Assembly: GCA_023664865.1 (NCBI GenBank)
Contig: JAMPEU010000007.1
Coordinates: 1 to 64,000, forward strand
Origin: Butyrivibrio sp.
GTDB lineage: Bacteria; Bacillota; Clostridia; Lachnospirales; Lachnospiraceae
Reading direction: 5' to 3'
Length of the DNA: 64,000 bases
Below the pieces are notes generated by a model. That model was not told where the DNA came from, ran no database searches, and saw only the letters and a program-made list of their open reading frames with translations. Positions 28,179 to 64,000 of this stretch are shown piece after piece (the stretch's first letter is position 1; each line of letters begins with the position of its first letter). A program made the position numbers and the translations under genes.

Positions 28179-28326
28179 GGAATAAACTCGTATACTTCCA
28201 CTTGAGGCACGCTCCCGCTCCGTGAAAAATCGCAGCGGTACTAAGTTCAAAGGCCGCTTTCGCGTCTTTTTCACTAAGGACCGGCGTTTTTCAAGGGCCT
28301 CAAATGAAAGTATATGAGTTCATTCC
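28179..28326 (+). repeat. Family A structured repeat, copy A1
   Basis: An outer stem starting GGAATAAACTC and ending GAGTTCATTCC encloses the family core (GGCACGCTCCCGCTCCG, then a TGAAAAA/TTTTTCA stem). This is the most divergent copy; the inner P3 arm differs. It lies between the nucleoside importer and the glycosyltransferase. The rest of the 28140-28494 gap holds the promoter at 28379-28407. Confidence 0.7.
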
Positions 28327-28378
28327 GCATATATGCTGTGAATAGTAGTCTTATGCTGGGATATTTAGAAATTGTGGC

Positions 28379-28407
28379 TTGTGTACCGTCCTAAAGTATG
28401 ATATGAT
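28379..28407 (+). promoter_or_regulatory. Promoter of the glycosyltransferase gene
   Basis: TTGTGT (28379-28384), 17 bases, TATGAT (28402-28407). It lies about 88 bases before the ATG at 28495. Confidence 0.45.
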
Positions 28408-28494
28408 TTACATATGTAGTTCAAATTGCGCTGATTCTGTAGTGGAAAATCGAAAACAGCGGTAAAATTGGAAATCGTCGGGAATCGAGGTAGT

Positions 28495-29475
28495 ATGGCA
28501 GAGATAACGGTTGTTATTCCCAACTATAACGGAATAAAATACCTGTCGGATTGTATACAGGCAATAGAAAAAGAACGCCAATCTCCTTCAACTCCTGAGT
28601 TTGAAGTTCTGATTGTGGACGACGCTTCTACAGACGGCAGTTTACAATTTCTTCGTGAGCGTTTTTCCAATGTGAAAACGATTTCGTTAAGTGAAAATGG
28701 GGGATTCTGCCATGCTGTCAACGTCGGCATACAGGAGTCAAAGACCCCATATATAATCCTATTGAACAATGATACTAAAGTTAAATCAGGATTTATCGCA
28801 TCATTATATATGTCCATTCGCAGTAATCCCAGAATTTTTTCAGTCAGTTCACAAATGCTTATGTGGGATAAACCGGAGCTTATTGATGACGCCGGTGATT
28901 ATTATTGCGCGTTTGGCTGGGCATTCGCCAGAGGCAAAGGCAGAGCGGCTGCCGCTTATAATAAGCCCGCCGAAATATTTTCGGCATGTGGCGGAGCTTC
29001 TATCTATCGTGCATCAATATTCGACGAGATAGGATTATTTGACGAAAACCATTTTGCTTATCTGGAAGATGTCGATATCGGCTATCGGGCGCGTATTAAC
29101 GGATTTATAAATTTATATGAGCCTCGCGCAAAGGTGCTGCACTTTGGAAGCGCCACCACTGGTTCACGCTATAATAAGCGCAAAACTTCTTTGGTATCAG
29201 CTAACAGCGTTTATATCATATGGAAGAATATGCCGGTATTACAGTTGTTATTAAATCTGCCGTTTATCTTAGTAGGCTTTTTTATAAAGTTCCTCTTTTT
29301 CTGTAAAAAAAAGATGGGAAGATTGTATCTGGAGGGATTATTGCGGGGACTTAGGCTGTGTATAGATAAAGAAGGCAGCTGCCACAAAGTAAAGTTCAAG
29401 TGGAAGAACTTCGGCAATTATCTTATAATTCAGCTTGAATTATGGATAAATCTGTTCAGGCTTATAATAAAATAA
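28495..29475 (+). CDS. Family 2 glycosyltransferase, membrane-associated
   Basis: The ATG at 28495, five bases after GAGG, is preferred over an in-frame TTG at 28468; it gives 326 residues. The GT-A domain shows ITVVIPNYNGIKYL, LIVDDASTDGS and the DXD-like LLNNDTKV. ENHFAYLEDVDIGYRARI is the acceptor-side acidic motif. A hydrophobic segment at about 245-275 and a basic tail suggest attachment to the inner membrane face. Relatives add rhamnose or other sugars to polysaccharides. No other surface-polysaccharide genes are nearby, so the acceptor is unknown. Confidence 0.85.
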   Translation: MAEITVVIPNYNGIKYLSDCIQAIEKERQSPSTPEFEVLIVDDASTDGSLQFLRERFSNVKTISLSENGGFCHAVNVGIQESKTPYIILLNNDTKVKSGFIASLYMSIRSNPRIFSVSSQMLMWDKPELIDDAGDYYCAFGWAFARGKGRAAAAYNKPAEIFSACGGASIYRASIFDEIGLFDENHFAYLEDVDIGYRARINGFINLYEPRAKVLHFGSATTGSRYNKRKTSLVSANSVYIIWKNMPVLQLLLNLPFILVGFFIKFLFFCKKKMGRLYLEGLLRGLRLCIDKEGSCHKVKFKWKNFGNYLIIQLELWINLFRLIIK

Positions 29476-29586
29476 TTGTTATTCTTGCATAAACGTAGTT
29501 AAATCTAAATTAAACAAATAAAAATATCTCAAATATTAGCGCCTGTAATGGGCTTACAGACGCGGAAAGGCATGGTTATTAATAAG

Positions 29587-30765
29587 ATGCAGTATCGCAA
29601 AAATAAGAAAGGAAATGATATTTCGGTTCTTGGCTACGGTTGTATGCGTTTCAGTAAAAAAGGAAACGCCATAGACATCGACAAGGCGGAAAAGGAGGTT
29701 ATGGCAGCCATAAATGCCGGAGTCAACTATTTGGATACGGCATACATATATCCCGGCAGCGAGGCTGCAGTGGGTGAGATTCTCAATCGTAACCAGTGCC
29801 GTGAAAAAGTCAGTATTGCCACTAAACTTCCGCATTATCTGATAAAGTCCATTGAAGGAACAGAAAAGATTTTCCGTGAGGAACTTAAAAGGCTGCAAAC
29901 CGATTATATCGACTACTATTTGATGCACATGCTTTCAGATGTTTCCGTCTGGGATAAATTAAAGAAGATGGGAATGACTGAATGGATAGAAGAAAAGCTC
30001 TCATCAGGACAGATACGCAATATTGGCTTTTCTTATCATGGCAGTTCAGATATGTTTAAGCAGCTTGTAGACGTATATGACTGGGATTTTTGCCAGATTC
30101 AATATAACTACATGGACGAACATTCGCAGGCGGGCGTAGAAGGACTCAAATACGCCAATTCAAAGGGGCTGCCCGTAATAATTATGGAACCGCTGCGTGG
30201 CGGCAGACTGGTAAACCTATTACCCGAGTCCGCAAAAGAGTTGTTTAACAAAGACCCTGAACACCGCACACCCGCAGAACTTGCATTAAAGTGGCTCTAT
30301 AGCCAGCCCGAAGTCACTTGCGTACTTTCAGGCATGAATTCTATTGAAATGGTAGAACAGAATATAGCTACCGCATCTAATTCACACATAGGCTGCATGA
30401 CGGAATCGGATAAGCTGTTAGTAGAGCAAGTCCGTAAGGAAATCGAGCGAACCGTAAAAGTCGGCTGCACAGGCTGCGGATACTGTATGCCGTGTCCAAA
30501 AGGCGTGGATATACCAGGTACTTTCCGCTGTTACAACGCCATGTATTCCGAAGGAAAACGTTCCGGCAGAATGGACTATCTGCAATGCACGGCGCTGCGC
30601 AAAGATACTTCCAGCGCATCACAATGTATCCAGTGCGGGAAATGCGAAAGCCACTGTCCGCAGCATATTGAAATCCGCAAAGAATTGAAAAATGCGGCAG
30701 GCGAACTGGAAACGCCGCTTTACAAGCTGGCAAAAGGTGCTGTACGGTTGTTTAAGTTGTGGTGA
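29587..30765 (+). CDS. Aldo/keto reductase with C-terminal ferredoxin-like domain
   Basis: The start at 29587 (MQYRKNKKGNDISVLGYG) gives 392 residues and fits family members; ATG 29572 is possible but closer to GGAAAGG than usual. The reductase barrel shows LDTAYIYPGSE and IATKLPHY. The C-terminus carries two cysteine clusters, CTGCGYCMPCPKG and CIQCGKCESHCPQ, expected to hold two 4Fe-4S clusters. Such proteins are common in anaerobes and probably couple carbonyl reduction to ferredoxin; the substrate is not known. Confidence 0.85.
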   Translation: MQYRKNKKGNDISVLGYGCMRFSKKGNAIDIDKAEKEVMAAINAGVNYLDTAYIYPGSEAAVGEILNRNQCREKVSIATKLPHYLIKSIEGTEKIFREELKRLQTDYIDYYLMHMLSDVSVWDKLKKMGMTEWIEEKLSSGQIRNIGFSYHGSSDMFKQLVDVYDWDFCQIQYNYMDEHSQAGVEGLKYANSKGLPVIIMEPLRGGRLVNLLPESAKELFNKDPEHRTPAELALKWLYSQPEVTCVLSGMNSIEMVEQNIATASNSHIGCMTESDKLLVEQVRKEIERTVKVGCTGCGYCMPCPKGVDIPGTFRCYNAMYSEGKRSGRMDYLQCTALRKDTSSASQCIQCGKCESHCPQHIEIRKELKNAAGELETPLYKLAKGAVRLFKLW

Positions 30766-30774
30766 TAAGTAACC

Positions 30775-30911
30775 GCGCATGGACACATATACTTCCACTT
30801 GAGGCACGCTCTCGCTCCGTGGAAAATCGCAATGGTACTAAGCTCGAAAATACCTCGCTAAGTACCAGCGTTTTCCAAGGACCTCAAGAGGAAGTATATG
30901 TGTCCATGCGC
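30775..30911 (+). repeat. Family A structured repeat, copy A2
   Basis: The outer arms are perfectly complementary over 22 bases (left arm starts GCGCATGGACAC), then CTTGAGG pairs with CCTCAAG after one mismatch. The core has CACGCTCTCGCTCCG, stem TGGAAAA/TTTTCCA and stem GGTACT/AGTACC. It fills the gap between the convergent Fe-S reductase and glutamine synthetase genes and could also act as a transcription barrier. Confidence 0.8.
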
Positions 30912-30953
30912 CTAACAACTAAACTATTTTAACAGCTTTTTATTAAAATTAAA

Positions 30954-32384
30954 TTACAAATCGTAGTACATCTTAAATTCCGCGGGATTGGGAATCTGTT
31001 CCATCTTCTTTAACTCGCTGCGTTTACGCGCTACCCAGATATCAATTAAGCGCTGGGGGAATACGCCGCCTTTAGTCAGATAGTCGTGATCTGCTTCCAA
31101 TGCGTCTAATGCTTCTCCGAGGGATTTCGGCAGTCCTTTGATTTTCTTCTGCTCTTCTTCTGAAAGCGTATACAGGTTAAAGTCATACGGTCCCCAGCCG
31201 TTCTTTTCCGGGTCAATCTGATTTTCGATTCCGTCCAGACCTGCCATCAGGATTGCTGCATATGCAAAATACGGATTTGCGGTTGCATCAGGATTACGCA
31301 GCTCAAATCTCTTTGTTTCAGGTGTCTTGGCATATGCCGGAATACGTATAACCGCGCTTCTGTTTGAAGTCGCATATCCTACGGTAACAGGTGCTTCAAA
31401 GCCCGGCACCAGACGCTTAAAGGAATTAGTAGACGGGTTGGTGAACGCGCACAATGAAGCTATATGTTTAAGCAGTCCGCCCATAAAATAATGCGCCGTG
31501 CGGCTTAATGACGAATATCCGTTTTCATCATAGAACAGCGGCTTTCCGTCCTTCATAAGCAGCATATGTACATGGAGTCCGCTTCCTGCTTCCTGATATA
31601 TCGGCTTAGGCATGAAGGTCGCCGTCTTGCCTTCTTTTGCCGCAATGTTCTTGATGATATATTTGATAATCATGGTATTATCAGCCATAACAGGCATATC
31701 GGCAAGTTCCACTTCTATCTCCATCTGCCCGGGACCGCCCACTTCATGATGATGATATTTCACTTTAATGCCCCAATCTTCCATCATCATACACATACGG
31801 CTCCGCAAATCATATCCGACATCTTGGGGCGCTGCTACATGATATCCGCCTTTTGCCGGAACTTCGTATCCGTTATTTCCCGGTACGTCCAGACTGCAGT
31901 TCCAATCCGCCTGTCTGGTATCAATTCGATAACCGCACTGTTTCTGTGTCACTTCATAACGCACGTTATCTAATAAATAAAATTCAAATTCCGGTCCGAT
32001 TATCATGCGGTCGGCAATTCCGCTCTCCTTCATATACTCTACCGCACGCAGGCTTACATTCTTGGGATACTGGTCAAACGGCGTATTTTCGCCTTTTCCT
32101 ATTGTACATACGTTGCCACACATAGTAAGCGTAGGCACATCTGCAAAGGGATCCACATAAGCGGTATCCGGATCAGGCAGGAATACCATATCGCTCTTTT
32201 CAATAGGCGCATAGCCATAATTAGAGCCGTCAAATCCTATGCCCTGCGTAAATGTGTTTTCTCCAAACCGCTCCACAGGAATCGTGATGTGCCGCCAGCG
32301 TCCGTCAATATCCGTCATTTTAAAATCAATCATGCGGATTTGATTCTCTTCACACTTCTTTCTGATTTCTTCAATTTTGTTCAT
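30954..32384 (-). CDS. glnA: Type I glutamine synthetase
   Basis: This 476-residue enzyme makes glutamine from glutamate, ammonia and ATP in the cytoplasm. The N-terminal beta-grasp domain (about 15-105) has IDFKMTDIDGRWRHI and FDGSNYG. The catalytic domain holds GPEFEFYL with the metal-binding glutamates, GSGLHVHMLLMKDGKPLF, NSFKRLVPGFEAPV and RFELRNPDATANPYFAYAA. The length is close to the long GSI form. It is a single gene, with AGGTG before the ATG, divergent from the TauE/SafE gene. Regulation could not be read with certainty from the AT-rich upstream region. Confidence 0.95.
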   Translation of the reverse strand: MNKIEEIRKKCEENQIRMIDFKMTDIDGRWRHITIPVERFGENTFTQGIGFDGSNYGYAPIEKSDMVFLPDPDTAYVDPFADVPTLTMCGNVCTIGKGENTPFDQYPKNVSLRAVEYMKESGIADRMIIGPEFEFYLLDNVRYEVTQKQCGYRIDTRQADWNCSLDVPGNNGYEVPAKGGYHVAAPQDVGYDLRSRMCMMMEDWGIKVKYHHHEVGGPGQMEIEVELADMPVMADNTMIIKYIIKNIAAKEGKTATFMPKPIYQEAGSGLHVHMLLMKDGKPLFYDENGYSSLSRTAHYFMGGLLKHIASLCAFTNPSTNSFKRLVPGFEAPVTVGYATSNRSAVIRIPAYAKTPETKRFELRNPDATANPYFAYAAILMAGLDGIENQIDPEKNGWGPYDFNLYTLSEEEQKKIKGLPKSLGEALDALEADHDYLTKGGVFPQRLIDIWVARKRSELKKMEQIPNPAEFKMYYDL

Positions 32385-32714
32385 GTTTTCACCTATACCC
32401 TTCCCTTAGTATGAGTAATATTCGTATTTCTTCCACAAATACAAATATCTAGTAAAATTGTACCATAAATCCGTGTATCTGGATAGAGTTTTCGGAAATA
32501 TTTACCTATATTTATCAACAGTTCAATCAACCTTGGCATAGATAAATTTACACGTCTATTTGCCTAAAGCCTATATTGATATCCAATTCAGTTTATTCTA
32601 TATTAATAAAAGTTAATATAAATTTAATCGCAATATAGGCTCTATTTACTTGACAAATAATATATTAGCATTAAAATATATTTTTATACGGTTATTTTAG
32701 GGGGCTGCAAGAGA
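32385..32714. other. AT-rich divergent regulatory region between glnA and the TauE/SafE gene
   Basis: No gene is visible. AGCCTATATTG (32568-32578) is exactly complementary to CAATATAGGCT (32631-32641), 52 bases apart, just upstream of the plus-strand promoter. This could be a paired operator or a cruciform-like element. No GlnR-like site was recognised. Confidence 0.4.
32650..32677 (+). promoter_or_regulatory. Promoter of the TauE/SafE gene
   Basis: A perfect TTGACA (32650-32655) is followed after 16 bases by TAAAAT (32672-32677), about 38 bases before the start codon. Confidence 0.6.
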
Positions 32715-33479
32715 ATGTACAAATTTTTTATTTGCTTTATTGCCGGGATTGGCGCAGGGCTTGGAACAGGATTTGCCGGAATGAGCGCCGCTGCCGTAAT
32801 TTCACCCATGCTTATTACATTTTTGGATTTTCCGGCATATGAAGCGGTCGGAATCGCCTTAGCAAGCGATGTTCTTGCAAGCGCCATAAGCGCATACACA
32901 TATGGTAAAAATAAGAATCTCGATATACGCAACGGCTTAGTCATGATGATTACTGTTTTGTTGTTTACCCTGGTCGGAAGCTTCGTTGCAAGCCTGCTGC
33001 CAAATACAACTATGGGAAGCTTCTCCGTATTTATGACACTGCTTCTCGGTATCAAATTCATCGTCAAGCCGGTTATGACTACCAAAGAAGCCATGCAGTC
33101 TGTCAGTCATAAGAAACGCATCGTCCAGTCGATTATATGCGGAAGCGTCGTAGGCTTTATCTGTGGATTTATCGGCGCAGGCGGCGGAATGATGATGCTG
33201 CTTTTATTGACAGGTATTTTAGGATATGAACTTAAAACCGCCGTTGGAACCAGCGTATTCATTATGGCATTTACCGCTTTTACAGGCGCAGTCAGCCATT
33301 TTGCCATCGGCGGCATGCCCGATATATTGTGCCTAATTTTCTGCGTGGCTTCTACTCTGCTCTGGGCAAGAATTGCCGCCAAATTCGCCAACAAAGCAAG
33401 CGCTGCCACACTAAACAGGGCTACAGGAGTCGTGCTTGCGGTCTTGGGAGCTGCGATTTTAGTGGTTAATTATGTATAG
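32715..33479 (+). CDS. TauE/SafE-family membrane exporter
   Basis: This 254-residue protein has about eight hydrophobic segments and the internal two-fold repeat of the family: GAGLGTGFAGMSAAAV near residue 13 and GFIGAGGGMMMLLLL near residue 155. Family members move sulfite, sulfoacetate or other organic anions across the membrane; the substrate cannot be told here. It is a single gene divergent from glnA, with AGGGGG ten bases before the ATG. Confidence 0.85.
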   Translation: MYKFFICFIAGIGAGLGTGFAGMSAAAVISPMLITFLDFPAYEAVGIALASDVLASAISAYTYGKNKNLDIRNGLVMMITVLLFTLVGSFVASLLPNTTMGSFSVFMTLLLGIKFIVKPVMTTKEAMQSVSHKKRIVQSIICGSVVGFICGFIGAGGGMMMLLLLTGILGYELKTAVGTSVFIMAFTAFTGAVSHFAIGGMPDILCLIFCVASTLLWARIAAKFANKASAATLNRATGVVLAVLGAAILVVNYV

Positions 33480-33823
33480 GAGCTTACCTTATTTGTCCCA
33501 ATACTTTAAAATTAAGACAAATCTTAAAAATATCATGATTATGTAATTATCAATGCCGGATTACTTATCAAAGCATCAACTATCGGCTTGTAGACTGCCC
33601 TGTCATGGACTTCCATAAATGCTTTTTAAAATTTTGGTACAATAATAACGATAAAATCTCTAGGGGGTCAAGTGAACCCCCTCTAAAAGTTCCATAAATA
33701 AAGGATTCCCGGCAAAGTATGTATCATATAACTTCCTGCGGGAACATGTTTTCTTCATATTGTATTCTTTCGCCAAAAATAAAACTCGTTCTAAAAACAA
33801 ACTATGATTGGCTGTTGTTACAA
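33480..33823. other. Intergenic stretch with one strong hairpin and a possible gene remnant
   Basis: AGGGGGT and ACCCCCT (about 33661-33681) form a compact hairpin. On the minus strand 33539-33616 reads as 25 codons starting MEVHDRAVYKP and ending LIIT before a stop; it looks like the end of a lost gene, but has no ribosome binding site. ATTTGTC/GACAAAT after the TauE/SafE stop may be a weak terminator. Confidence 0.3.
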
Positions 33824-35038
33824 TTAATGGTATTCATCCATCCATTCATTTATAAAATTTGATATATTAATCAAATCATAATCCTCACACAACTTTCCTT
33901 TTTCTATGGTATTTTTCAAGTTATTAATTTCCTCCTTGAAATCCAAACTTGTTTCACCTTTTACTACTAAATAATTATAATACACCAATTTAACACGAAA
34001 ATAATTAAGCAATACGCCCGTTACCATATACCGTCCGTTCACATTCTGCAAATCTATATTCAAATCAAAAATAAACTCGTCCCACGAATGTATACTTTTC
34101 TGAAACGATTCTTTAATATTGTTACTCATTTGAAAAATTATATTTTGCATAATATATATTCTTTCCATACTCGAATAAATAAACATTGAATAGGGTTTGT
34201 TATATAATTCTGACTCCATCGCACATCCAAATGCTGTCAGTGCATTTTCAAAGCATATACTCAATTTTTTTCTATCTTCTTCGAATATCTCTGCCTTTTC
34301 TAATTCTTTCATCTGTGAGATTAAGAATGGATTTGAGCCATGTATATATTTTTCTATAATACGTAATGCTTTAAAATAATAGTCACGTCCAACAGAATCA
34401 TAATACAGATATTTTGTATATGGGTTTTTAAATAAATCTCCCCGAATTTCATATATGTCTACAGGTCTCCCCACTTTATACAAATATTGAAGCAGTTTAA
34501 TATTTTCATCAACAATATATTGTGTACCATTGCTGATATTTTTCATTCTCTTATATCTTTTATCAATCAACTCCAGATTCTCTTGCATCACTTTCTGGTA
34601 ATGCTCATTGTGATAGTTATACCATCCAACAATGAAATAATCATCAATGATTTTTTGTATGCAATCTGTAAATTTCAGATTAGTTCCAGACTGTTTTTTT
34701 AACATACAATTTTGCTCAAAATATATTTTTTCTAATGCCACCTGTGATTCCTTTATATCACAATACTCTCGGAATTGTGTCACGGGTGAAATTGCATATG
34801 TTTCATTTTCCAATACATTTCCATCTAGCGTTGATATATCATTTACAGAATCAATAGAAAAATATGTAAATAGTGAAATAATCAAAGCCACTGACGAAAT
34901 AATCAAAGAAACAACGCCTATAACAAAGTTGCCAATATCTAAATTTCCCATAGGACTATTTATTAAGATATACACAGCAACACTAGCCATTATAAAAGTC
35001 ACAAATATTGCTACTATTGATTTTTTAACATTTTTCAT
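33824..35038 (-). CDS. Membrane protein of unknown function, AT-rich
   Basis: I do not recognise this 404-residue protein. It has two hydrophobic segments near its N-terminus (about 9-28 and 37-65) and a long helical, charged part that should be cytoplasmic (about 70-404), with many Tyr, Asn, Ile and Lys. Base composition is clearly more AT-rich than its neighbours, which suggests recent transfer. An upstream reading frame ends in its start (ATATGA), as in coupled genes. No enzymatic motif was seen. A membrane-tied sensor or effector is possible but unsupported. Confidence 0.6.
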   Translation of the reverse strand: MKNVKKSIVAIFVTFIMASVAVYILINSPMGNLDIGNFVIGVVSLIISSVALIISLFTYFSIDSVNDISTLDGNVLENETYAISPVTQFREYCDIKESQVALEKIYFEQNCMLKKQSGTNLKFTDCIQKIIDDYFIVGWYNYHNEHYQKVMQENLELIDKRYKRMKNISNGTQYIVDENIKLLQYLYKVGRPVDIYEIRGDLFKNPYTKYLYYDSVGRDYYFKALRIIEKYIHGSNPFLISQMKELEKAEIFEEDRKKLSICFENALTAFGCAMESELYNKPYSMFIYSSMERIYIMQNIIFQMSNNIKESFQKSIHSWDEFIFDLNIDLQNVNGRYMVTGVLLNYFRVKLVYYNYLVVKGETSLDFKEEINNLKNTIEKGKLCEDYDLINISNFINEWMDEYH

Positions 35039-35218
35039 ATATCATCCCCCATATCGTTTCTATAATCTCTCAGAGCCTCCAAGCCAGTAAATACACGGCT
35101 TTCAAATTCCATTTTTGTATTTATGATTTCATCTGTATCAAATCCCTGCTTGTCCAAAAAATTCTTGTACTTCTTATTAAATAGTTCAGCAAATGTATCC
35201 GCTGATATCCATTATCCA
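35035..35218 (-). pseudogene. Possible broken small gene upstream of the AT-rich membrane gene
   Basis: One frame encodes WISADTFAELFNKKYKNFL and continues to LRDYRNDMGDDI, ending in TGA that overlaps the ATG of the next gene (ATGA). It lacks an ATG in frame after the preceding TAA. A strong GGGGAGGA with ATG at 35218 starts in another frame and stops after 32 codons. A frameshift or degraded start would explain this; a non-standard start is the alternative. Confidence 0.35.
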
Positions 35219-36747
35219 TAATTAGTTCCTCCCCAATCTACTCGCACCTTCTTTGAGTCGATTTCTCCCTTGGAAAGTAAGACCACCGTCTCTATCCCCG
35301 TGGTAAAAGGGAACATATCGACAGCTACCGCTCTCTTTGCCTGATAGCCTCTGGCTGAAAATATCTCCAAGTCCCGTATAAGGCTGGTCGGCTTGCACGA
35401 TATGTATAGAATATAATCTACGCCGAAACGTATGATTTTATCAAGCGCTTTTGGATTTATGCCGTCACGCGGCGGGTCCAGAATGATAATATCCGGCTTA
35501 TCTTCTATTCCATCAATTACTTTAAGCACGTCGCCCGCAATAAATTCGCAGTTATGTAAACCATTCAATTCGGCGTTCTGCCGTGCGGCATCAACCGCTT
35601 CTTCGACGATTTCCACTCCGATTACTTTCTTTGCCACCGGAGCCATAAGCTGGGCTATAGTCCCGGTTCCGCTATATAAATCGAATACCACCTTGCCGTC
35701 TGCATATTCCCGCACATCGAACGTCGATGTGTTAAGCGGCGGCTTAATATAGTCCACAATATAATCTCTCGCCGTCTGATACAGCACTTCCGCGCCCAAG
35801 CTGTTAGTCTGGAAAAAGGAAAACTCTGATATTTTAAACTTTAACCCCAGCAGCTCCTCGAAAAAATAATCCTGACCATACAGAATATCCGTCTCATCAC
35901 TCTGTACCACATCTGCGGGAGAATCATTCTTTGTATGCAGGATGCCGACGATTTTTCCCTCCAACTCTAAATCCAGCAGTTTCTGCTTGAAACCATCTAA
36001 TATGCCCTCTTCCGTACAGCTTTCGTTATCTATATCGGCTATCCTTCCATCTGCCGCGTTTCCGTCTGCCGCCTGTGTCGTCGTTACAAGCGCAATCAAT
36101 ATTTCTCCTGTCTTTGCCGCCTTTCGCACTAAAAGATGGCGCAGATAGCCCTCATGCTTAAGCCTGTGGTAAAACTTTATGCCAACTCCTTGTTCCTGTA
36201 ATTCCGCAAAGTAATCCCTGACGCATCTTATAATCTTGCGGTAATCTTCATCAACAATCTGGCATTCCGTAACGGATACTATATCATAGAAACTGCCTCT
36301 TTTGTGCATACCAAGCGAAAGCGGACCGTCTTTTACCTCATCGCCAAATGAAAACTCCATTTTATTACGATAACCGCCCTCCACTGGGCTTGGCTTAATC
36401 CCCTCAAAACTAAAGCCTTCCTGAGCTGCCAACACGGAATCTAAAAGCCTTTTTACCTGAGTTTCTTTTATCTTAAGCTGTTCCGCATATGGCAAAGACT
36501 GATATACGCAGCTCCCACATATCCCAAAATGCGGGCAGGGGCTTGTCCTCTCAAGGGCAGACGGCTCTAATACCTCTAACAGTCTGCCTTCCGCCCTGCC
36601 TTTTCTGACTTTATTTACCGAGCATCTTACTTTTTGGCCTGTCAGCGCATTTTTCACGACGCAGATTCCTTCTTCCGTCTCCACTATTCCCTTATTGGGA
36701 AAATCCACCCTCTGCACAATTCCTTCAACAATACTGCCCTTTTTCAT
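35212..36747 (-). CDS. TrmA/RlmD-type RNA (uracil-5-)-methyltransferase
   Basis: This 511-residue protein has an N-terminal TRAM RNA-binding domain (about 1-60), the cysteine cluster CPHFGICGSC expected to hold a 4Fe-4S cluster (about 71-80), a linker, and a SAM-dependent domain (FDLYSGTGTIAQLM, about 365; DPPRDGIN, about 440). The nucleophilic cysteine lies in YISCKP. The family makes 5-methyluridine in 23S rRNA or tRNA; without comparison the site cannot be assigned. A hydrophilic Asp/Ala-rich insert lies near residues 225-250. The gene is followed by the broken small gene. Confidence 0.88.
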   Translation of the reverse strand: MKKGSIVEGIVQRVDFPNKGIVETEEGICVVKNALTGQKVRCSVNKVRKGRAEGRLLEVLEPSALERTSPCPHFGICGSCVYQSLPYAEQLKIKETQVKRLLDSVLAAQEGFSFEGIKPSPVEGGYRNKMEFSFGDEVKDGPLSLGMHKRGSFYDIVSVTECQIVDEDYRKIIRCVRDYFAELQEQGVGIKFYHRLKHEGYLRHLLVRKAAKTGEILIALVTTTQAADGNAADGRIADIDNESCTEEGILDGFKQKLLDLELEGKIVGILHTKNDSPADVVQSDETDILYGQDYFFEELLGLKFKISEFSFFQTNSLGAEVLYQTARDYIVDYIKPPLNTSTFDVREYADGKVVFDLYSGTGTIAQLMAPVAKKVIGVEIVEEAVDAARQNAELNGLHNCEFIAGDVLKVIDGIEDKPDIIILDPPRDGINPKALDKIIRFGVDYILYISCKPTSLIRDLEIFSARGYQAKRAVAVDMFPFTTGIETVVLLSKGEIDSKKVRVDWGGTNYG

Positions 36748-36968
36748 GCGGCTCTGACTCCTTAATTCATATTAAAATATATAGATAATTGATAAACTCG
36801 TGACAGCACATGGCAGCTGCAATTATCTGAGAAATAAATACGGGACGCACCGCCTACGTCCGGCACGTCCCGCTGGAAAATAAAACTATTAATTCAATTT
36901 TTACAAATACCGTCGCCTATACGGCATTAATTGTCGGACTATTTTCTTAACTTAGCAGCTTTAAGCTC
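36748..36968. other. Non-coding gap with repeat B end fragment and GC-rich hairpin
   Basis: ACTCGTGACAGCACA at about 36794-36808 is identical to the conserved right flank of family B repeats, here in the loop of AGATAATTG/CAATTATCT. CGGGACG and CGTCCCG (about 36841-36872) form a hairpin that may end transcription of the 97-residue gene. Confidence 0.4.
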
Positions 36969-37262: not shown

Positions 37263-37389
37263 ACTTATACCCTCTCTTTCATGTTGTTACGGAATGTTTG
37301 TACATCCGTTTCTATTGTATAATTATAATATACCACTAATTCACATTTTTTACTACATATTTTTTTATTAAGTTATTATACTATAACAA

Positions 37390-45990: not shown

Positions 45991-46121
45991 GCCTTACCAT
46001 GCCTTTCTTTTTACACGCCGCCGCGGCGGCGTTTCTATATATTACATTATATAGTTTTTATTACTACATGGCAAGTGTTTTGATGCAAATAGGATTTCAT
46101 TATTATTCGTAGTCTTTGAAG

Positions 46122-46275
46122 GGCATGGACTCATATACTTCCTCATGAGGCACGCTCTCGCTCCGTGTAAAATCGCAGCGGTACTAAGCTCGAAAATACC
46201 TCGCTGAAGTACAAGACCACTTGCAGTGGTCTGCGTTTTACAAGGACCTCAAGAGGAAGTATATGAGTCCATGCC
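46122..46275 (+). repeat. Family A structured repeat, copy A3 with an extra hairpin
   Basis: The outer stem pairs 28 of 29 positions (left arm begins GGCATGGACTCATATACTTC). The core matches the family, with stem TGTAAAA/TTTTACA. Between P3 and the second P2 strand this copy alone has AGACCACT-TGC-AGTGGTCT. It occupies most of the 310-base gap between the FlxA-like gene and DUF1836. Confidence 0.8.
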
Positions 46276-46300
46276 ATATTCAAGCACATATAAGCCGTAA

Positions 46301-54613: not shown

Positions 54614-54643
54614 AACGGCAAATTATAAAATCCGTTTAAAACC

Positions 54644-54672: not shown

Positions 54673-54677
54673 TGATT

Positions 54678-56651: not shown

Positions 56652-56660
56652 CTTTGCTTT

Positions 56661-57419
56661 CTAATTTTCTATAACGTCGCTCATATCATAGAGTCCGGCA
56701 TGTTTTCCTTTAAGGAATTTCGCCGCCTGAATTGCGCCTTTTCCAAACACCGCCTTGGAATACGCCCTATGCGAAAAAGTAATCACTTCGTCCGTTCCAG
56801 CGAATATTACGTCATGGTCGCCTACAATCGTGCCGCCTCTTACAGCGCTTATGCCGATTTCGTTACGAGTTCTCTTTTCCCTTTTGGCACTTCTATCATA
56901 GACATACTGGCAATCGCCGTCAAGCTCTTCTTTGATGGAATCAGCAAGCGCCAAAGCCGTACCGCTTGGCGCATCTAACTTCTGGTTATGGTGCTTCTCT
57001 ACAATCTCCACGTCAAAATCCGCTGGTGCAAGTATGGAAACCGCCTCTTTCAATATCTTTAAGAGCATATTTATGCCAAGCGACATATTGGCGGACTTAA
57101 GCACAGCGGTTTTAGCCGATATTTCCTTTACTTTGGCAAGCTGCATATCGGAAAGCCCTGTAGTGCATAACACACACGGCAGCTTTTTATCCGCGCAGTA
57201 ATCAAGCAGCGCATCGACAGCCGAGGCGGTACTAAAATCAATTATGGCATCCGCCCCTACATCGCACTTGCCAATCTCCGTAAAGACCGGATAGCTGTTT
57301 TTCCCTTCATCATATGCGTCTATCCCTGCTACGACCTCTATCTCATCATCAGCTGCGATAAGCCCGGTCAGCGTCTGTCCCATCTTGCCATTGCAGCCGT
57401 GTAAAATCACTCTCACCAT
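56661..57419 (-). CDS. dapB: 4-hydroxy-tetrahydrodipicolinate reductase
   Basis: This 252-residue enzyme carries out the second committed step to diaminopimelate and lysine, using NAD(P)H. The nucleotide-binding loop is GCNGKMG (about 7-13). KHHNQKLDAPSGTAL is the signature with catalytic His and Lys. ATG 57419 was chosen; TTG 57425, closer to AGGAGA, is an alternative. It follows dapA by 33 bases. Confidence 0.95.
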   Translation of the reverse strand: MVRVILHGCNGKMGQTLTGLIAADDEIEVVAGIDAYDEGKNSYPVFTEIGKCDVGADAIIDFSTASAVDALLDYCADKKLPCVLCTTGLSDMQLAKVKEISAKTAVLKSANMSLGINMLLKILKEAVSILAPADFDVEIVEKHHNQKLDAPSGTALALADSIKEELDGDCQYVYDRSAKREKRTRNEIGISAVRGGTIVGDHDVIFAGTDEVITFSHRAYSKAVFGKGAIQAAKFLKGKHAGLYDMSDVIEN

Positions 57420-57452
57420 TTCCAACGTTCTCTCCTTTATAAAATACCGTAA

Positions 57453-58337
57453 TTACAAAATGCCGTAATTTTTCATCGCGCTTTTAAGCTTCTCCAAATT
57501 AGCCTCTTCCATTTCACTAAGCGGCATCCTTGTAGGTCCCGCCTCTTTTCCCATAAGATTTAAGGCAGCCTTAACCGGAATCGGATTTACCTCGCAAAAC
57601 AAAGCGTCGTATAATTCAATGGCACGCAGCTGTTCCTTACAGCTTCCTTCCACATCTCCGGCAAAGAATTTCGCACAGATGTCATGCGTCTGTCTTGGCG
57701 CTACATTGGACATTACAGAAATAACTCCCTTGCCTCCGAGCGACAGGATAGGCACAATCTGGTCGTCGTTGCCCGAATAAATATCCACTTTTCCCTGTGC
57801 AAGAGACGCCAGTTTGGCTATCTGCGAAATGTTCCCGCTTGCCTCCTTGATTCCGACTATATTCGGCACATCATTGCAAAGCCTTACCGCCGTCTGCGGC
57901 AGAATGTTGCAGCCTGTTCTGCTGGGTACATTGTATAATATAATCGGGAGTTTCACCGAGTCCGCTATTTTCTTATAATGATTATACAGTCCGTTTTGGG
58001 TTGCCTTATTGTAATACGGAGTCACTAAAAGCAGAGCGTCCACACCGTATTTTTCAGCTTCCGTGGAAAGATAAACCGCCGTATCGGTGCAGTTGGAGCC
58101 GGTGCCTGCCACGACCGGAATCCTGCCGTTTACTTTCTGTGCGCAAAACTTAATTACCTCAAGATGCTCTTCATGCGTGAGCGTGGAAGACTCCCCTGTC
58201 GTACCGCATACTATAATCGCATCCGTGCCGTTTTGAATCTGAAACTCGATAAGTTCTTCAAACTTCTCAAAATTAACGCTTCCGTCCGCGCTAAAAGGTG
58301 TAACGATTGCAACTCCTGCTCCTTTAAATACTGCCAT
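57453..58337 (-). CDS. dapA: 4-hydroxy-tetrahydrodipicolinate synthase
   Basis: The ATG at 58337 follows GGAGGG by six bases and gives 294 residues; the upstream frame runs through the riboswitch terminator. The enzyme condenses pyruvate and aspartate semialdehyde. YNVPSRTG contains the catalytic Tyr, and the Schiff-base Lys is in GIKEASGN. It is the first gene after the lysine riboswitch, so lysine should switch off dapA, dapB and probably fbp. Confidence 0.96.
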   Translation of the reverse strand: MAVFKGAGVAIVTPFSADGSVNFEKFEELIEFQIQNGTDAIIVCGTTGESSTLTHEEHLEVIKFCAQKVNGRIPVVAGTGSNCTDTAVYLSTEAEKYGVDALLLVTPYYNKATQNGLYNHYKKIADSVKLPIILYNVPSRTGCNILPQTAVRLCNDVPNIVGIKEASGNISQIAKLASLAQGKVDIYSGNDDQIVPILSLGGKGVISVMSNVAPRQTHDICAKFFAGDVEGSCKEQLRAIELYDALFCEVNPIPVKAALNLMGKEAGPTRMPLSEMEEANLEKLKSAMKNYGIL

Positions 58338-58365
58338 ACTAATCCCTCCAAAAAGTAATGAAATA

Positions 58366-58398
58366 ATACAAAAGCTGACCGATAATGAGGTCAGCTTC
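58366..58398 (-). terminator. Riboswitch terminator upstream of dapA
   Basis: AAGCTGACC and GGTCAGCTT pair around TCATTATC, followed by TTTTGT on the minus strand, about 35 bases before the dapA start. It is the expected expression platform. Confidence 0.8.
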
Positions 58399-58423
58399 AT
58401 CATAATTGCTATTATAAATATCC

Positions 58424-58595
58424 CGATAGCGCCCCATCTTATTCGATGACAGTCATACAGCTATTAACTGCACGCCCAAGAAAAAATCTGCAGCCGACCT
58501 TTTCTTTCGGCATCTTTTCCTTTCCGAATACTTCATCTGCGCCTGCCGCATCCGTATCCATACTGATAAAAAATGCAACCTCTATCAACTTTCAT
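58424..58595 (-). ncRNA. Lysine riboswitch (L box)
   Basis: The minus strand reads GATAGAGGTTGCA, CAGTAT, TGCCGAAAGAAAA, TTTTCTTGGGCGTGCAG, GACTGTCA and closes with CGCTATC, in the order and spacing of the B. subtilis lysC L box. GATAG and CTATC form the closing P1 stem. It fills the gap between dapA and its promoter. Lysine binding should favour the terminator at 58366-58398. Confidence 0.92.
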
Positions 58596-58628
58596 TCGTG
58601 ATAAAATCACACCTACTGTTATTAAAAT

Positions 58629-58657
58629 ATATTAACACCGCCATTCCCAACTGTCAA
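58629..58657 (-). promoter_or_regulatory. Promoter of the dapA-dapB-fbp operon
   Basis: Consensus TTGACA (58652-58657), 17 bases, TAATAT (58629-58634) on the minus strand, about 30 bases before the riboswitch. Confidence 0.8.
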
Positions 58658-58708
58658 TATGCTCTTATGCTTAATTCCGATTAATTCTGAATTTTCTTTC
58701 TATAACTT

Positions 58709-59347
58709 TTATTCCTGCTCTTCTTCCACTATCTCCAGCTTGCTTACGGAAACCTCATACGCAGTCCTTCTTTCAAGCTGATCTTCGGAAATCTTTTTCA
58801 TATATTCCCTGCTCTGGATTCTGCCCCATACCGCGCAGCGGCTTCCCACCTCGAAGGTGCTGGCAAATCTGGCGTTTCTTCCCCAGCATATACATGGTAT
58901 GTAATCCGACTTGCCGTATGGCCTATTGACTGCTAAGAGCAAATCCGCGATTTCCCTGCCAAGCGGAGTTTTGCGGTATATCGGCGCTTTGCAGATATAG
59001 CCGTCTAAATATATCTGGTTGGTCTTGGTGCTTTCTTCAATGTCATCGACAAAATCAAGCTCTCTTGCAAACACAGACAGCACCAGTTTATTCTTTTTCT
59101 CCTCATGGCGGTTGTAGGAGCGGAACTGTCCGGAAATACTGATTTTCATACCCTTATAATCTTCATTTACGTCAAGCAGTCTCTCAGATACCATAACCGG
59201 AATGATATCCGTGGAATCGCTCAATCTGTCCACGCTGATATCTACCATATAGAATCCTTCTCCAAATATCTCATGACTAAATTCAAAATCGCTTACGACT
59301 TCCCCCATAATAGTCACTTGGTTATTTTCAATTACCTTATCTGTCAT
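58709..59347 (-). CDS. ssb: Single-stranded DNA-binding protein with two OB-like domains
   Basis: This 212-residue protein seems to have two OB-like domains: residues about 8-100 (NQVTIMGEVVSDFEFSHE) and 105-205 (NQIYLDGYICKAPIYRKTPL, then SDYIPCICWGRNARF). The second is closest to standard SSB. The end EIVEEEQE lacks the usual DDDIPF-like tip. Tandem domains suggest that two chains could do the work of the normal tetramer, or that this is a specialised extra copy. It is a single gene. Confidence 0.8.
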   Translation of the reverse strand: MTDKVIENNQVTIMGEVVSDFEFSHEIFGEGFYMVDISVDRLSDSTDIIPVMVSERLLDVNEDYKGMKISISGQFRSYNRHEEKKNKLVLSVFARELDFVDDIEESTKTNQIYLDGYICKAPIYRKTPLGREIADLLLAVNRPYGKSDYIPCICWGRNARFASTFEVGSRCAVWGRIQSREYMKKISEDQLERRTAYEVSVSKLEIVEEEQE

Positions 59348-59516
59348 TTCCTGTTCTCCCTTCTTTGTTAAAGAAACTTAACTCTTTAAGAATTTTTTCC
59401 GGTATTGTATTATCATTATATTCCTTTATTTGCAAAATAGAAGTGTCAACTGTCGCGTAAAGCAAGACTAGAATATAAAGAGTATAATAAATAGTATAAC
59501 AAAGATTACCATATAC

Positions 59517-59545
59517 TTGCAAGTTTTACTTTGTAGTGATATACT
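59517..59545 (+). promoter_or_regulatory. Promoter of typA
   Basis: TTGCAA (59517-59522), 17 bases, TATACT (59540-59545), about 60 bases before the start codon. Confidence 0.6.
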
Positions 59546-59606
59546 AAATAAGTTTGAAAAAATTATAAAATAAGTATAAATTTCAGGAAGGATTACGGTT
59601 ATTAGT

Positions 59607-61454
59607 ATGAATCAGGTAAGGGAAGACGTAAGAAATATTGCAATTATCGCCCATGTTGACCACGGCAAAACCACGCTGGTTGACGAGCTGCTAAAGCAAA
59701 GCGGCGTATTTCGGGAAAATCAAGAGGTTGCAGAGCGTATCATGGACTCTAATGACCTTGAGCGGGAGCGCGGCATTACGATTTTGTCAAAAAATACAGC
59801 TGTTATGTATAAAGGCGTAAAAATAAATATAATAGACACACCCGGACATGCGGATTTCGGCGGCGAGGTAGAGCGTGTCTTAAAAATGGTGAATGGCGTA
59901 ATTTTAGTAGTTGACGCTTTTGAAGGTCCCATGCCGCAGACCAGATTCGTATTAAAGAAGGCTTTGGAGCTGGATTTGTCAGTTATCGTATGTATTAACA
60001 AATGCGACAGGCCGGAGGCGAGGCCGATTCAGGTAGTCGATGAAGTGCTGGAGCTTCTGATGGATTTAGATGCAAACGACGAACAGCTTGACTGTCCTTT
60101 CGTCTACGCTTCCGCCAAAACGGGTACAGCTACGACGCAGCTTACCGTAAAGGGCAAGGACATGACGCCGCTTTTTGATACGATACTATCGCATATCCCT
60201 GCGCCATGCGGAGACCCTGACGCAGGCACGCAGGTGCTTATAAGCACCATCGATTATAACGAATATGTAGGGCGTATAGGCGTCGGAAAGGTTGATAACG
60301 GAACCATACATGTAAATCAGGAAGTCGTAATCGTAAACCACCATGAACCCGACAAGCTTAAAAAAGTGAAAGTCAGCAAGCTCTATGAATATGACGGGCT
60401 TAACAAAATAGATGTAAAAGAAGCGGGAATCGGCTCTATCGTAGCGATATCCGGCATTTCGGACATTCATATCGGCGACACCCTTTGCTCGCCGGAAACG
60501 CCGAACCCTATTCCTTTCCAGAAAATATCCGAACCTACCATCGCGATGCACTTTATCGTCAATGATTCCCCACTTGCCGGACAGGAAGGAAAGTATGTCA
60601 CAAGCCGCCACCTACGCGACAGGCTTTTCCGCGAGTTGAATACGGACGTGTCGCTGCGCGTCGAAGAAACCGATACGACGGAATCCTTTAAAGTATCGGG
60701 GCGCGGAGAGCTGCATCTGTCGGTCTTAATAGAAAATATGCGCAGGGAAGGCTACGAATTTGCAGTCAGCAAAGCGGAAGTGTTGTATAAGACAGACGAA
60801 AACGGCAAAAAGTTAGAGCCTATGGAGCTGACATATGTAGACGTACCCGAAGAATTTGCCGGTACGGTAATCGAAAAGCTGAGCCAGAGAAAAGGCGAGC
60901 TTAAAAATATGGGACAGGCAGCCGCAGGATATACCCGTCTGGAATTTTCCATACCTTCAAGGGGACTGATTGGCTACAGGGGCGAATTTATGACGGATAC
61001 GAAGGGCAATGGCATCATGAACAGCATCTTCGACGGCTACGGTCCTTATAAGGGAGACATCATGTACCGCAAGCAGGGTTCTTTAATCGCATATGAGGCA
61101 GGAGAGGCGATAACTTACGGTCTATATAATGCCCAGGAGCGCGGCACGCTTTTCATCGGTCCGGGTACGAAAGTATATTCCGGCATGGTAGTAGGGCAAA
61201 ATGGGCGCGGTGAGGATATCGAGCTGAATGTCTGCAAGAAGAAGCAGCTTACCAATACCCGTTCTTCCAGCGCAGATGAAGCGCTTAGACTTACGCCGCC
61301 CAAGGTTTTAAGTTTAGAGCAGGCATTAGAGTTCATTGATACAGACGAACTGCTTGAGGTCACGCCGTCAAGCTTAAGAATCAGGAAGAAAATCCTGGAT
61401 CCGACTATGAGAAAAAGAGCCGCTATATCGGCAGCGGCTAAATCCGGAGAATAA
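59607..61454 (+). CDS. typA: Translational GTPase TypA/BipA
   Basis: This 615-residue ribosome-binding GTPase has G1 [10 protein letters not shown]2 RGITI, G3 DTPGHADF and G4 NKCD, an EF-G-like beta-barrel and alpha/beta domains, and the BipA-specific C-terminal domain (about 490-610, [20 protein letters not shown]). It helps late ribosome assembly and growth under stress or cold. A family A repeat lies five bases after the stop. Confidence 0.95.
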
Positions 61455-61458
61455 TGGT

Positions 61459-61597
61459 GCGGCATGAACTCATATGTTTCTCCTTGAGGCACGCTCTCGC
61501 TCCGTGGAAAATCGCAGCGGTACTAAGCTCGAAAAGACCTCGCTAAGTACCGGCGTTTTCCAAGGACCTCAAGAAGAAGCATATGAGTTCATGCCGC
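61459..61597 (+). repeat. Family A structured repeat, copy A4
   Basis: The outer stem (left arm starts GCGGCATGAACTCATATG) pairs over about 30 positions with two G-U type changes. The core has CACGCTCTCGCTCCG, TGGAAAA/TTTTCCA and GGTACT/AGTACC. It fills the gap between the converging typA and mgtE genes. Confidence 0.8.
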
Positions 61598-61637
61598 TTA
61601 ACGTTGTGGATACATGGATTGTGAATAGTAATATGGA

Positions 61638-62969
61638 TTATATCCCTAACGCCAGTGTTGCGATTCTGAAATAGATTAATAAGGATATAGCGTCAACGAT
61701 TGTAGTTATGAATGGGCTCGCCATTACCGCCGGGTCCATTCCTATTTTCTTGGCAATCATCGGCAGAGTCGAGCCTACTACCTTAGCCACGATAACTGCC
61801 AGAAACAGCGTAATGCTGACTACTAAGGCAACTTGTACGCCTACCTGTTCTATTAAAAGTATCTTAACAAAGTTACATACTGCAAGCGTAAGGCCGCACA
61901 ACACAGCGGTGCGGATTTCCTTCCACACTACGGTAAGCCAGTCCCTGAATTGTATCTCGTCCAATGACAATCCACGAATGATAATCGCGCTCGCCTGTCC
62001 GCCCGCGTTTCCGCCCGTATCCATTAACATAGGGATAAATGCCGTCAGTACGACATATCTGCTAAGCGCATCTTCAAAAGAAGCAATAATCCTTCCTGTA
62101 AATGTGGCAGATATCATCAACAGCAAAAGCCACGGAATACGTTTTTTCCACGCATCAATAACACTTGTTTTCATATATGGTTTGTCGGAGGGCATAATAG
62201 CCGCCATCTTCTCGATATCCTCTGTGGTTTCTTCTTCAAGAATATCTACAACGTCATCGACAGTGATTATTCCGACAAGCCTCTCTTCATTATCCACAAC
62301 GGGCATGGAAGTAAAGTCGTACTTTTTGAACTGCCTTGCCACTTCTTCCTGGTCCATCATAGTATTTAAGGAGATGACATTGCCGTGCATTATATCCCCT
62401 ATAATGGCGTCTTGCGGGCTAAGCAGCAGATATCTGAGCGCTACCGTACCGACTAAAGTTCTTCTTCCATCAAGCACATAGCATATGTTTATCGTCTCAC
62501 TGTCCACGCCTACTTTACGGATTCTTGCCACAGCCTCTTCTACCGTCAATGTCTCTTTTAAGTCCACGTATTCCACCGTCATAATGCTGCCTGCAGAGTC
62601 TTCGGGATAACGCAGAAGATGGTTTATATCCCTTCTGGTCTCCGGGCTTGCATTGGTAAGCAGTCTTTTTACAACATTTGCAGGCATTTCTTCCAAAAGG
62701 TCAGTCGCATCGTCAGCCATAAGGTTATCTATGATGTTAGCCGCATCCTTATCGGACATTGAAGTTATAATATACTGCTCGGTTTCAATTTCCAGATATG
62801 AAAAGACATCCGCCGCCATGCTCTTAGGAAGAATGCGAAACAACTTAAGAAGGTCGTCACGCTCCATCTCTTCCATGGATGCCGCAATATCCGCTACGTT
62901 CATTTCCGTCATATGCTGGCGCAGCTTAAGGTACTGTCCCGAATTAAGTAATTCTATGATTTCTTCCAT
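61638..62969 (-). CDS. mgtE: Magnesium transporter MgtE
   Basis: This 443-residue protein has the N domain (about 1-120), two CBS domains (about 125-250; VEYVDLKETLTVEEAVARIR, MPVVDNEERLVGIITVDDVV) and five membrane segments (about 275-443) with GGNAGGQAS and the pore motif region near DPAVMASPFITTIVD. The cytoplasmic domains sense magnesium and close the channel. No M-box riboswitch was seen in the 13-base gap; it lies directly after yigZ, so the two form an operon. Confidence 0.95.
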   Translation of the reverse strand: MEEIIELLNSGQYLKLRQHMTEMNVADIAASMEEMERDDLLKLFRILPKSMAADVFSYLEIETEQYIITSMSDKDAANIIDNLMADDATDLLEEMPANVVKRLLTNASPETRRDINHLLRYPEDSAGSIMTVEYVDLKETLTVEEAVARIRKVGVDSETINICYVLDGRRTLVGTVALRYLLLSPQDAIIGDIMHGNVISLNTMMDQEEVARQFKKYDFTSMPVVDNEERLVGIITVDDVVDILEEETTEDIEKMAAIMPSDKPYMKTSVIDAWKKRIPWLLLLMISATFTGRIIASFEDALSRYVVLTAFIPMLMDTGGNAGGQASAIIIRGLSLDEIQFRDWLTVVWKEIRTAVLCGLTLAVCNFVKILLIEQVGVQVALVVSITLFLAVIVAKVVGSTLPMIAKKIGMDPAVMASPFITTIVDAISLLIYFRIATLALGI

Positions 62970-62982
62970 GCTTATCTCCTTT

Positions 62983-63618
62983 TCATAACATAAAATAACC
63001 CTCGCCCTTATCCTCTATCTGCGCTTTGCCGGCGGTTGCTTCGGTTATTTCTTTGATTACGGCTTCTTTATCTTCATATGGGATTTTAACTTTTATGACA
63101 ACAATATCAGTGTATTCAGGCTCCTCTATCGCAATATTCCTGCGTCCCATTATATACTGAATTTTCCCGATACCGTTGTAATCTGTGGTGATTTGCAAAG
63201 ACACGCCACGTATCATCCGGCGCACATCGCTTTCCGCCATTCCTGCCTGCGCCGCCTGGGTGTATGCGCGCACCAGCCCGCCTGTTCCAAGCAGAGTTCC
63301 GCCAAAGTAGCGCGTCACCACAATTACCGTATTGCACACTTCCATTCCAAGCAGCACTTCCAAAATCGGCTTTCCGGCTGTGCCTGAAGGCTCCCCATCA
63401 TCGGAAAATCTCACAATCTGCGCATTTTCACCCAATACATAGGCATAGCAGTTGTGCCTTGCGTCCCAATATTTCTTCTTCATAGAGTCGATGAACGCAA
63501 GCGCTTCTTCTTCTGTCTGAACGGGTGCGGTATTCGCTATAAATACGGATTTCTTTTCTTCAATTTTTCCCATGCCGCCGTGGGCAATGACATTATAAGA
63601 CTCTGCTTTATTATCCAT
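62983..63618 (-). CDS. yigZ: YigZ/IMPACT-family protein
   Basis: This 211-residue protein has the IMPACT N-terminal domain (about 15-125: KKKYWDARHNCYAYVLG, FSDDGEPSGTAGKPIL, VVTRYFGGTLLGTGGLVRAY) and a C-terminal ferredoxin-like domain (about 140-205). Its role is not settled; homologues have been linked to translation control and proline peptides. It precedes mgtE by 13 bases. Confidence 0.92.
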   Translation of the reverse strand: MDNKAESYNVIAHGGMGKIEEKKSVFIANTAPVQTEEEALAFIDSMKKKYWDARHNCYAYVLGENAQIVRFSDDGEPSGTAGKPILEVLLGMEVCNTVIVVTRYFGGTLLGTGGLVRAYTQAAQAGMAESDVRRMIRGVSLQITTDYNGIGKIQYIMGRRNIAIEEPEYTDIVVIKVKIPYEDKEAVIKEITEATAGKAQIEDKGEGYFML

Positions 63619-63656
63619 AAATTGCTTTCCATAAATACAATCTTTCTTACCGGTAC

Positions 63657-63739
63657 GAGCTTAATCCAAATGAATAAAACGGAGCTCCATGCCTAAAAAG
63701 CGGTAAGTCGCTCCTTATTTATTCATTTGGATTAAGCTC
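63657..63739 (-). repeat. Family B structured repeat, copy B4
   Basis: In minus orientation GAGCTTAATCCAAATGAATA pairs with a right arm ending GGATTAAGCTC around the family core with GGAGC/GCTCC. AACCA precedes it as in B3. The arms differ from B1 and B3 on both strands. It lies just upstream of yigZ. Bases 63740-63863 are AT-rich with nothing recognised. Confidence 0.75.
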
Positions 63740-63863
63740 TGGTTATTAAAATAAAATTCAACATTATATATATTAACATAATTGGGAATAAAAGTATATC
63801 AACTTGTGAATATTTAATAAAGATAATTATTATAGTTTATTTTGACTTTGTTCAGTTTACAAG

Positions 63864-64000
63864 CGTCAGGGGCATATATGCTCACCGAAAAGGTCCTTGT
63901 AAAACGCTGGTACTTAGCGAGGTATTTTCGAGCTTAGTACCACTGCGATTTTACACGGAGCGAGAGCGTGCCTTTTCAGTGAGCATATATGTCACTGACG
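63864..64000 (-). repeat. Family A structured repeat, copy A5
   Basis: This inverted copy ends exactly at the window edge. Its outer arms (CGTCAGTGACATATATGCTC on the minus strand) are unlike the other copies yet still pair, and the base of the core has GAAAAGG/CCTTTTC instead of TTGAGG/CCTCAA. The core strand CACGCTCTCGCTCCG is unchanged. Confidence 0.8.

Follow-up and report, generated by a model that had tools for sequence, protein, structure and literature searches.

For dispersed palindromes in bacterial genomes, the usual explanation is a RAYT enzyme or a transposon whose ends match. REP elements are 20-50 nt long, and one group of them has a stem with a bulge (PMC8266576). The pneumococcal BOX, RUP and SPRITE elements are reported to be over-represented between convergent genes and thought to be parasitic and slow to transpose (PMC3049150). 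The present analysis concerns a family of intergenic palindromic repeats, family A, of which five copies (A1 to A5) lie in a 64,000-nucleotide stretch of Butyrivibrio sp. (assembly GCA_023664865.1, contig JAMPEU010000007.1, positions 1 to 64,000), called here the window. The window belongs to a draft genome, G000 (3.82 Mb, 180 contigs, 96.6% complete), and its sister genome is called G020. The elements are about 140 bases long and the window copies measure 137-156 nt. Family A is a structure-constrained dispersed element family. Each copy retains its internal pairing even as the copies drift apart, the core has RNA-type signatures and is found in two classes, and neither a RAYT enzyme nor a transposon with matching ends was found here. 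The kept pairing, the RNA-type signatures and the presence in two classes make possible a direct test of whether a bacterial repeat spreads through its RNA or single-strand fold. The family also adds a large and trackable structured family in gut bacteria.

Core fold, covariation and spread of family A

The 19-base core was matched 152 times in G000 with up to 3 mismatches, while the reversed control gave 0 matches. A covariance model, R1, was built from 32 copies. It gave 88 matches in 1,544,623 bases of G000, of which 83 were kept. The five weak matches dropped were overlying a kept copy on the opposite strand, and one more was dropped likewise in the companion search. The bulk element set consists of 111 copies from stretches of G000 (1.54 Mb) and G020 (1.14 Mb), 2.68 Mb together.

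The fold was predicted by RNAalifold from a MAFFT alignment of 32 copies and contains 39 pairs, 33 of them with a double change that keeps pairing. The test alignment was composed of 108 matches from 99 loci, none of them within the stretches of G000 and G020. In this alignment 90.8% of the cells are paired and double changes keeping the pairing were observed in 38 of the 39 stem pairs. Covariation reached 0.607, whereas shuffles gave 0.184 and sliding the structure gave no more than 0.129, and 0 of 500 shuffles scored as high; these counts lean towards R1 because the alignment was fitted to R1 and some loci were in the training set. The other loci of the 108-match set had been found with R1 or with a pattern demanding NRA, which also favours the model. 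The sequence-only reading had stated that paired changes show selection for the fold, and covariation beyond the shuffled and slid controls backs this statement.

The core, about 75-110 nt in length, would form as RNA on one strand a long rod of stems P1b, P2 and P3. P3 is predicted to contain a U-U mismatch, which is conserved, and a CU bulge, with a two-pair GNRA hairpin on the 3' side of the rod. The segment CACGCTCTCGCTCCG had been described as an unpaired strand that stays fixed. Neither part of this description held, as its complement forms a GC-GAGA-GC mini-hairpin and is hence not unpaired, and the loop of A1 is GGGA, not GAGA, still of GNRA type. On this other strand the two-pair hairpin with a GNRA loop was present by position in 104 of the 108 matches. 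Three of the remaining four have a GNRA hairpin few bases off, judged by eye, and locus L100 has AGGA. The closing stem is GC/GC in 97 matches and GT/AC in 6, while five other stems, AT/AT and AC/GT among them, occur once each; the AC/GT variant is recurrent in G000. Among the unpaired bases, A284 beside the hairpin is invariant (108/108), and G330 (107/108), U44 (106/106) and U263 (105/107) are conserved to a similar degree.

The strand carrying AGCGNRAGCG was the more stable in 100 of the 111 copies and the less stable in 11, with a mean difference of 5.9 kcal/mol. Over the structure, G-U was found in 218 cells against 80 for A-C (21 pairs vs 8); both sums are lumpy, since a single pair contributes 63 G-U cells and a different one 30 A-C cells. 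For copies of G000 and G020, the outer arms showed 53 G-U and 17 A-C in a frame chosen counting G-U as paired. At arm positions 15-29, which lie outside the frame choice, the counts were 18 and 7, with nine of the 18 at one position. These cells are not independent draws because the copies share ancestry. The G-U counts and the folding energy favour the AGCGNRAGCG strand. The GNRA hairpin speaks for the structured RNA suggested earlier, as do the covariation and the strand asymmetry; the RNA status itself is predicted from the fold.

The spread of the family was analyzed with R1 by scoring at most 49 candidates per genome in the genus, 12 in the order, 9 in the phylum and 61 in a family of another class. 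As few candidates were scored per genome and the filters were strict, the genome counts are lower bounds and the absences are soft. R1 matched 74 of 77 genomes of its own genus. In the order it matched 30 of 295 genomes, all 30 in its own family (Lachnospiraceae), and 18 further listed genomes of this family gave no R1 match in the order-level search. Five of 398 phylum genomes were matched, four of them in the same family (G000 included) and one, G726, in another class. The family of G726 showed matches in 5 of 61 genomes, with 57, 54, 16, 13 and 9 matches. In a further genome of the other class, G776 (loci L363-L366), the core was seen inside a larger repeat, the flanks too being common to several copies. 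Pattern hits per species ranged from 0 to 100 within one genus. A pattern scan of named genomes hit at least 103 stretches, and the 80 matches listed carry names such as Lachnospiraceae, Clostridiales, Eubacteriaceae, Butyrivibrio, Blautia, [Clostridium] symbiosum and plain 'bacterium'. Some Muribaculaceae names among the matches listed are taken to be mislabelled bins. No match to the exact pattern was found in IMG/VR viral contigs, and copy A2 had none among plasmids and phages. The sequence-only reading had proposed a covariance-model search, and such a search yielded further copies in G000 and in its relatives with no described Rfam family matched; for the A2 stretch, Rfam gave nothing at E values up to 10. 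The sole Rfam hit of the window at gathering thresholds was the lysine riboswitch (RF00168, positions 58419-58592, minus strand, 115.6 bits).

Window copies, arms and nested hairpins

All five predicted window copies were located (Table 1). On folding both strands, the better-folding one was minus for A1 to A4 and plus for A5. Each of the five folds into a single long rod, with the AGCGNRAGCG strand more stable in every case.

Table 1. Family A copies of the window with their strand, anatomy and mini-hairpin positions
Copy	Coordinates	Strand	Anatomy	Mini-hairpin
A1	28179..28326	-	arms ~30 bp + core	28210-28219
A2	30775..30911	-	31-bp arms + core	30807-30816
A3	46121..46276	-	extra AGACCACTGCAAGTGGTCT hairpin in P3	46153-46162
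A4	61459..61597	-	32-bp arms + core	61492-61501
A5	63864..64000	+	AAGG/CCTT arms	63959-63968

The described variants of P2 are present in the sequence, and so is the double change of GAGG/CCTC to AAGG/CCTT in A5. The outer stems, which differ in sequence and yet pair, were seen to extend over about 31 pairs. The described GGTACT/AGTACC stem is disrupted in A1, which has AGGACC, and remodelled in A3 by an extra hairpin of AGACCACTG/AAGTGGTCT type.

The general architecture would be a core flanked on both sides by inverted arms, about 31 to 50 bp long, which vary in sequence by subfamily and remain self-complementary. In the well-paired set, pairing in 56 copies reached about pair 31 and then stopped abruptly. 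Flank and end analyses covered 106 of the 111 copies, as five without enough flank were left out. Terminal inverted repeats were present in this set, with a median arm of 45 nt by local extension. In other copies the arms are near-perfect over as much as about 50 bp and end near AACAGTTCAGCC, or the ends resemble AATTGCGAAACTC; one genome has both types of end, on the same core. The two arms of one copy are 86% alike against 60% between copies, and an arm's own partner was its best or tied match in 60 of 80 copies. A two-hairpin repeat at positions 183395-183580 of contig C114 in G000 has GTAACAGTTCAGCC ends like one arm class and a different interior.

Nested hairpins were also observed. The extra hairpin of AGACCACT-AGTGGTCT type gave 22 pattern hits on two strands, all within elements, and its reversed control gave 2. 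The CAGAAAATTTAC-GTAAATTATCTG hairpin was found 4 times within elements and 15 times outside, with 2 control hits. A 27-nt mini-hairpin, CAGAAAATTTACTTCGTAAATTATCTG, occurs both free and nested in family A elements (G000 contig C180, 82150-82258; C158, 97066; and others), as if mobile by itself. The window also contains, at about 63650-63745, a member of a second structured repeat family with a core GGAGCTCCATGCCTRAAAAGCGGTAAGTCRCTCC within long complementary arms. When up to 8 mismatches were allowed, this core was found at 42 places across the 2.68 Mb from G000 and G020, and at none in the reversed control.

Genomic sites, sister genomes and possible movers

Genes were called by a simple ORF rule and the calls are crude. 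According to them, 101 of the 111 copies lie between two called genes, 4 are inside a called ORF and 6 have no neighbour; the orientation counts leave out the six copies that do not have a called gene on each side. The copies had been described as lying mostly after stop codons. Four of the five window copies follow stops directly by the same rule, and A5 is situated between divergent genes. In co-directional gaps, 52 of 69 copies were nearer the 3' end of the gene (p 3e-5). Their orientation showed no clear preference, with 29 sense and 40 antisense copies (p 0.23). Twelve loci from other genera or few-copy genomes were compared for a shared site, and by eye only two genomes of genus g26 had anything in common, namely the neighbouring gene pair, with the copy in different gaps.

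Of the 111 elements, 16 could be compared between the two genomes because each flank had a match in the other: 11 from G000 and 5 from G020. The sequence-only reading had advised looking for empty sites; 7 of the 11 G000 sites have no element in G020 and 4 have one, that at C136:114131 being of another arm class. The intergenic stretch of A1 is missing at the syntenic G020 site. By eye, four of the seven sites without an element (C158:82863, C114:170075, C158:92568 and C136:116636) contain arm remnants with the centre gone, the last a remnant of another class. The ortholog of A2 in G020 differs from it in the apical part and by a double change, C-G to G-C, within the arm. The swap of the apical part points to conversion between copies, a process that might also account for double changes. 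Ortholog arms were compared in three pairs over 96 arm positions; a fourth pair was dropped as its arms were out of register. Three double changes were found, all paired in both genomes. One-sided changes numbered 11; after 7 of them, none via A-C, the two genomes still have the pair, while 4 leave it unpaired in one genome.

Domain searches addressed possible mobilising enzymes. Y1_Tnp (PF01797) was not found in G000, nor in G020, G016, G079, G026 and G091. Y1 genes are present in 30 of the 77 genus genomes and in 2 of the 9 genomes with at least 40 pattern hits. No correlation with the number of pattern hits was seen for Y1 (Spearman -0.03, p 0.83) or for IS66 (Spearman -0.19, p 0.10). Among high-copy genomes, Y1 was detected in G069 and G070, IS66 in G069 and G091, and the group II maturase in G067, G069 and G070, while IS110 was above the cut-off in G020 and G070. 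Of 106 copies, 14 had a GTAG or GTGG motif no more than 8 nt from one of their feet, a count for which the chance level was not computed. No candidate emerged when copies interrupted by an insert, or bearing a gene, were looked for. Y1 (RAYT/IS200), IS66, IS110 and the group II maturase gained no support as present-day movers of the G000 copies, none having been found in G000; absence there is no proof because the assembly is a 180-contig draft. The largest cluster of neighbouring genes (10 loci) is taken, by eye, to be ABC transporters.

We give somewhat better than even credence to the view that family A represents non-autonomous, MITE-like (miniature inverted-repeat transposable element) intergenic elements built around a new structured core under selection. 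Such elements would spread by transposition in trans with an enzyme supplied from elsewhere, and the core may be the structure recognised by the moving machinery. Insertion after stop codons would be tolerated, and single copies would be dispensable and lost by palindrome collapse. The view draws on the number and dispersal of the copies, the covarying fold with its strand asymmetry, the location near 3' ends with no clear preference of orientation, the arms that match within rather than between copies, and the sites that differ between G000 and G020. Several observations weigh against it. IS66, IS110 and group II maturase domains were not found in G000. Three end motifs were followed in search of an autonomous element with matching ends, and none flanks a transposase in the analyzed stretches of G000 and G020. 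The 388 ORFs beside copies gave no mobiliser candidate as a recurrent gene family. No clear target-site duplication was observed in the 106 copies: exact ones were close to the shuffled expectation, and near-matches (6 of 8 bases) showed a slight excess, 15 against 9.7 expected, though for several classes the exact ends are uncertain. G000, too, has an element at each of the five comparable G020 sites. Loss by palindrome collapse is the simplest reading at the four sites that keep arm remnants without the centre, so that these remnants point to loss, not insertion. The best pairwise matches among 79 copies were at most 95% identical, and therefore no very recent movement was seen. Within 60 nt of gene ends, 30 sense and 49 antisense copies hint at a weak orientation bias (p 0.04). 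In genus g26, G241 and G285 (loci L092 and L098) have one match each among 12 candidates scored per genome, and in both the copy adjoins the same gene pair (proteins 84% and 75% identical), though in different gaps, which suggests a hot spot or a local role. Pairing kept between orthologs could also mean a host function.

These last two points fit a host-serving structured RNA, a 3'-UTR (untranslated region) element or small RNA that was duplicated and kept at gene ends, for example for processing or stability. The RNA-type constraint (covariation, GNRA loop, invariant bases and G-U excess), the clustering after stop codons and the ortholog arms with their three paired double changes and 7 of 11 pair-keeping one-sided changes agree with it. 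It is nevertheless considered unlikely, as the copies lack a clear orientation preference to the neighbouring gene, vary from 0 to 100 pattern hits among species of one genus and are absent at 7 of 11 comparable G020 sites, and the only recurrent neighbour family is the one taken for ABC transporters. A selfish or domesticated structured RNA with a compact fold, possibly with a docking GNRA loop, in which the element's own RNA and not an encoded protein is selected and mobilised, may have spread in many copies through two classes of one phylum; this reading is quite unlikely. DNA palindromes might also be kept perfect without selection on RNA, if the arms switch templates with each other or the copies convert one another. 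The arms concerted within a copy, the centre deletions, the apical parts swapped between orthologs and the 4 of 11 one-sided changes left unpaired in one genome are in line with this. A GNRA loop with a variable closing stem, invariant unpaired bases, the one-strand excess of G-U over A-C and the R1 matches in two classes are not, which makes it distinctly improbable. The sequence-only reading had proposed a REP- or IS200-type enzyme as the mover. High copy number, palindromic form, intergenic position, a bulged stem and the Y1 genes of 30 genus genomes recall REP/BIME-like elements whose mover is a RAYT or an IS200/IS605 Y1 transposase. The lack of a Y1 hit in G000 and five other high-copy genomes, the failure of Y1 to track copy number, the few GTRG motifs at the feet and the length of the copies speak against such a mover, and we regard it as very improbable. 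Stable stems directly after stop codons would also suit intrinsic terminators. This reading is scarcely credible and was rejected because U tracts are lacking, with TTTT in the first 8 nt past the 3' arm in 3 of 106 copies, and only 4 of the 106 having AAAA among the 8 nt that precede the 5' arm; moreover, termination does not need a branched conserved core.

Comparison with known systems

Small structured intergenic repeats are a known kind of element, while a GNRA-bearing core in two classes without a found mobiliser is not described in the literature covered. By title and abstract opening, no description of such repeats in Lachnospiraceae was found in a search that left most subscription journals and preprints outside. 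The human-microbiome palindromic candidate RNAs of Fremin and Bhatt 2021 are alike in being predicted structured palindromes, some of them not terminators; the four palindromic examples in the passages covered are mostly or entirely from Bacteroidetes, and overlap of family A with its tables is possible (PMC8040213). REP/BIME elements with TnpA_REP (RAYT) share with family A the many short intergenic palindromes and, in one of the REP groups, a bulged stem (PMC8266576). In contrast to them, the elements described here are about three to eight times longer and have a conserved branched core; they also differ in the scarcity of GTRG near the foot and in the lack of a detected Y1 in G000 and the five high-copy genomes. 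BOX, RUP and SPRITE are likewise small structured repeats (PMC3049150). Compared by description only, family A differs from them in one core fold that is matched in two classes and in its GNRA hairpin. The MITEs resemble family A in their inverted ends, non-coding and dispersed nature and differing presence or absence between relatives. Family A differs from MITEs in having no clear target-site duplication, no parent transposase found and a core that covaries.

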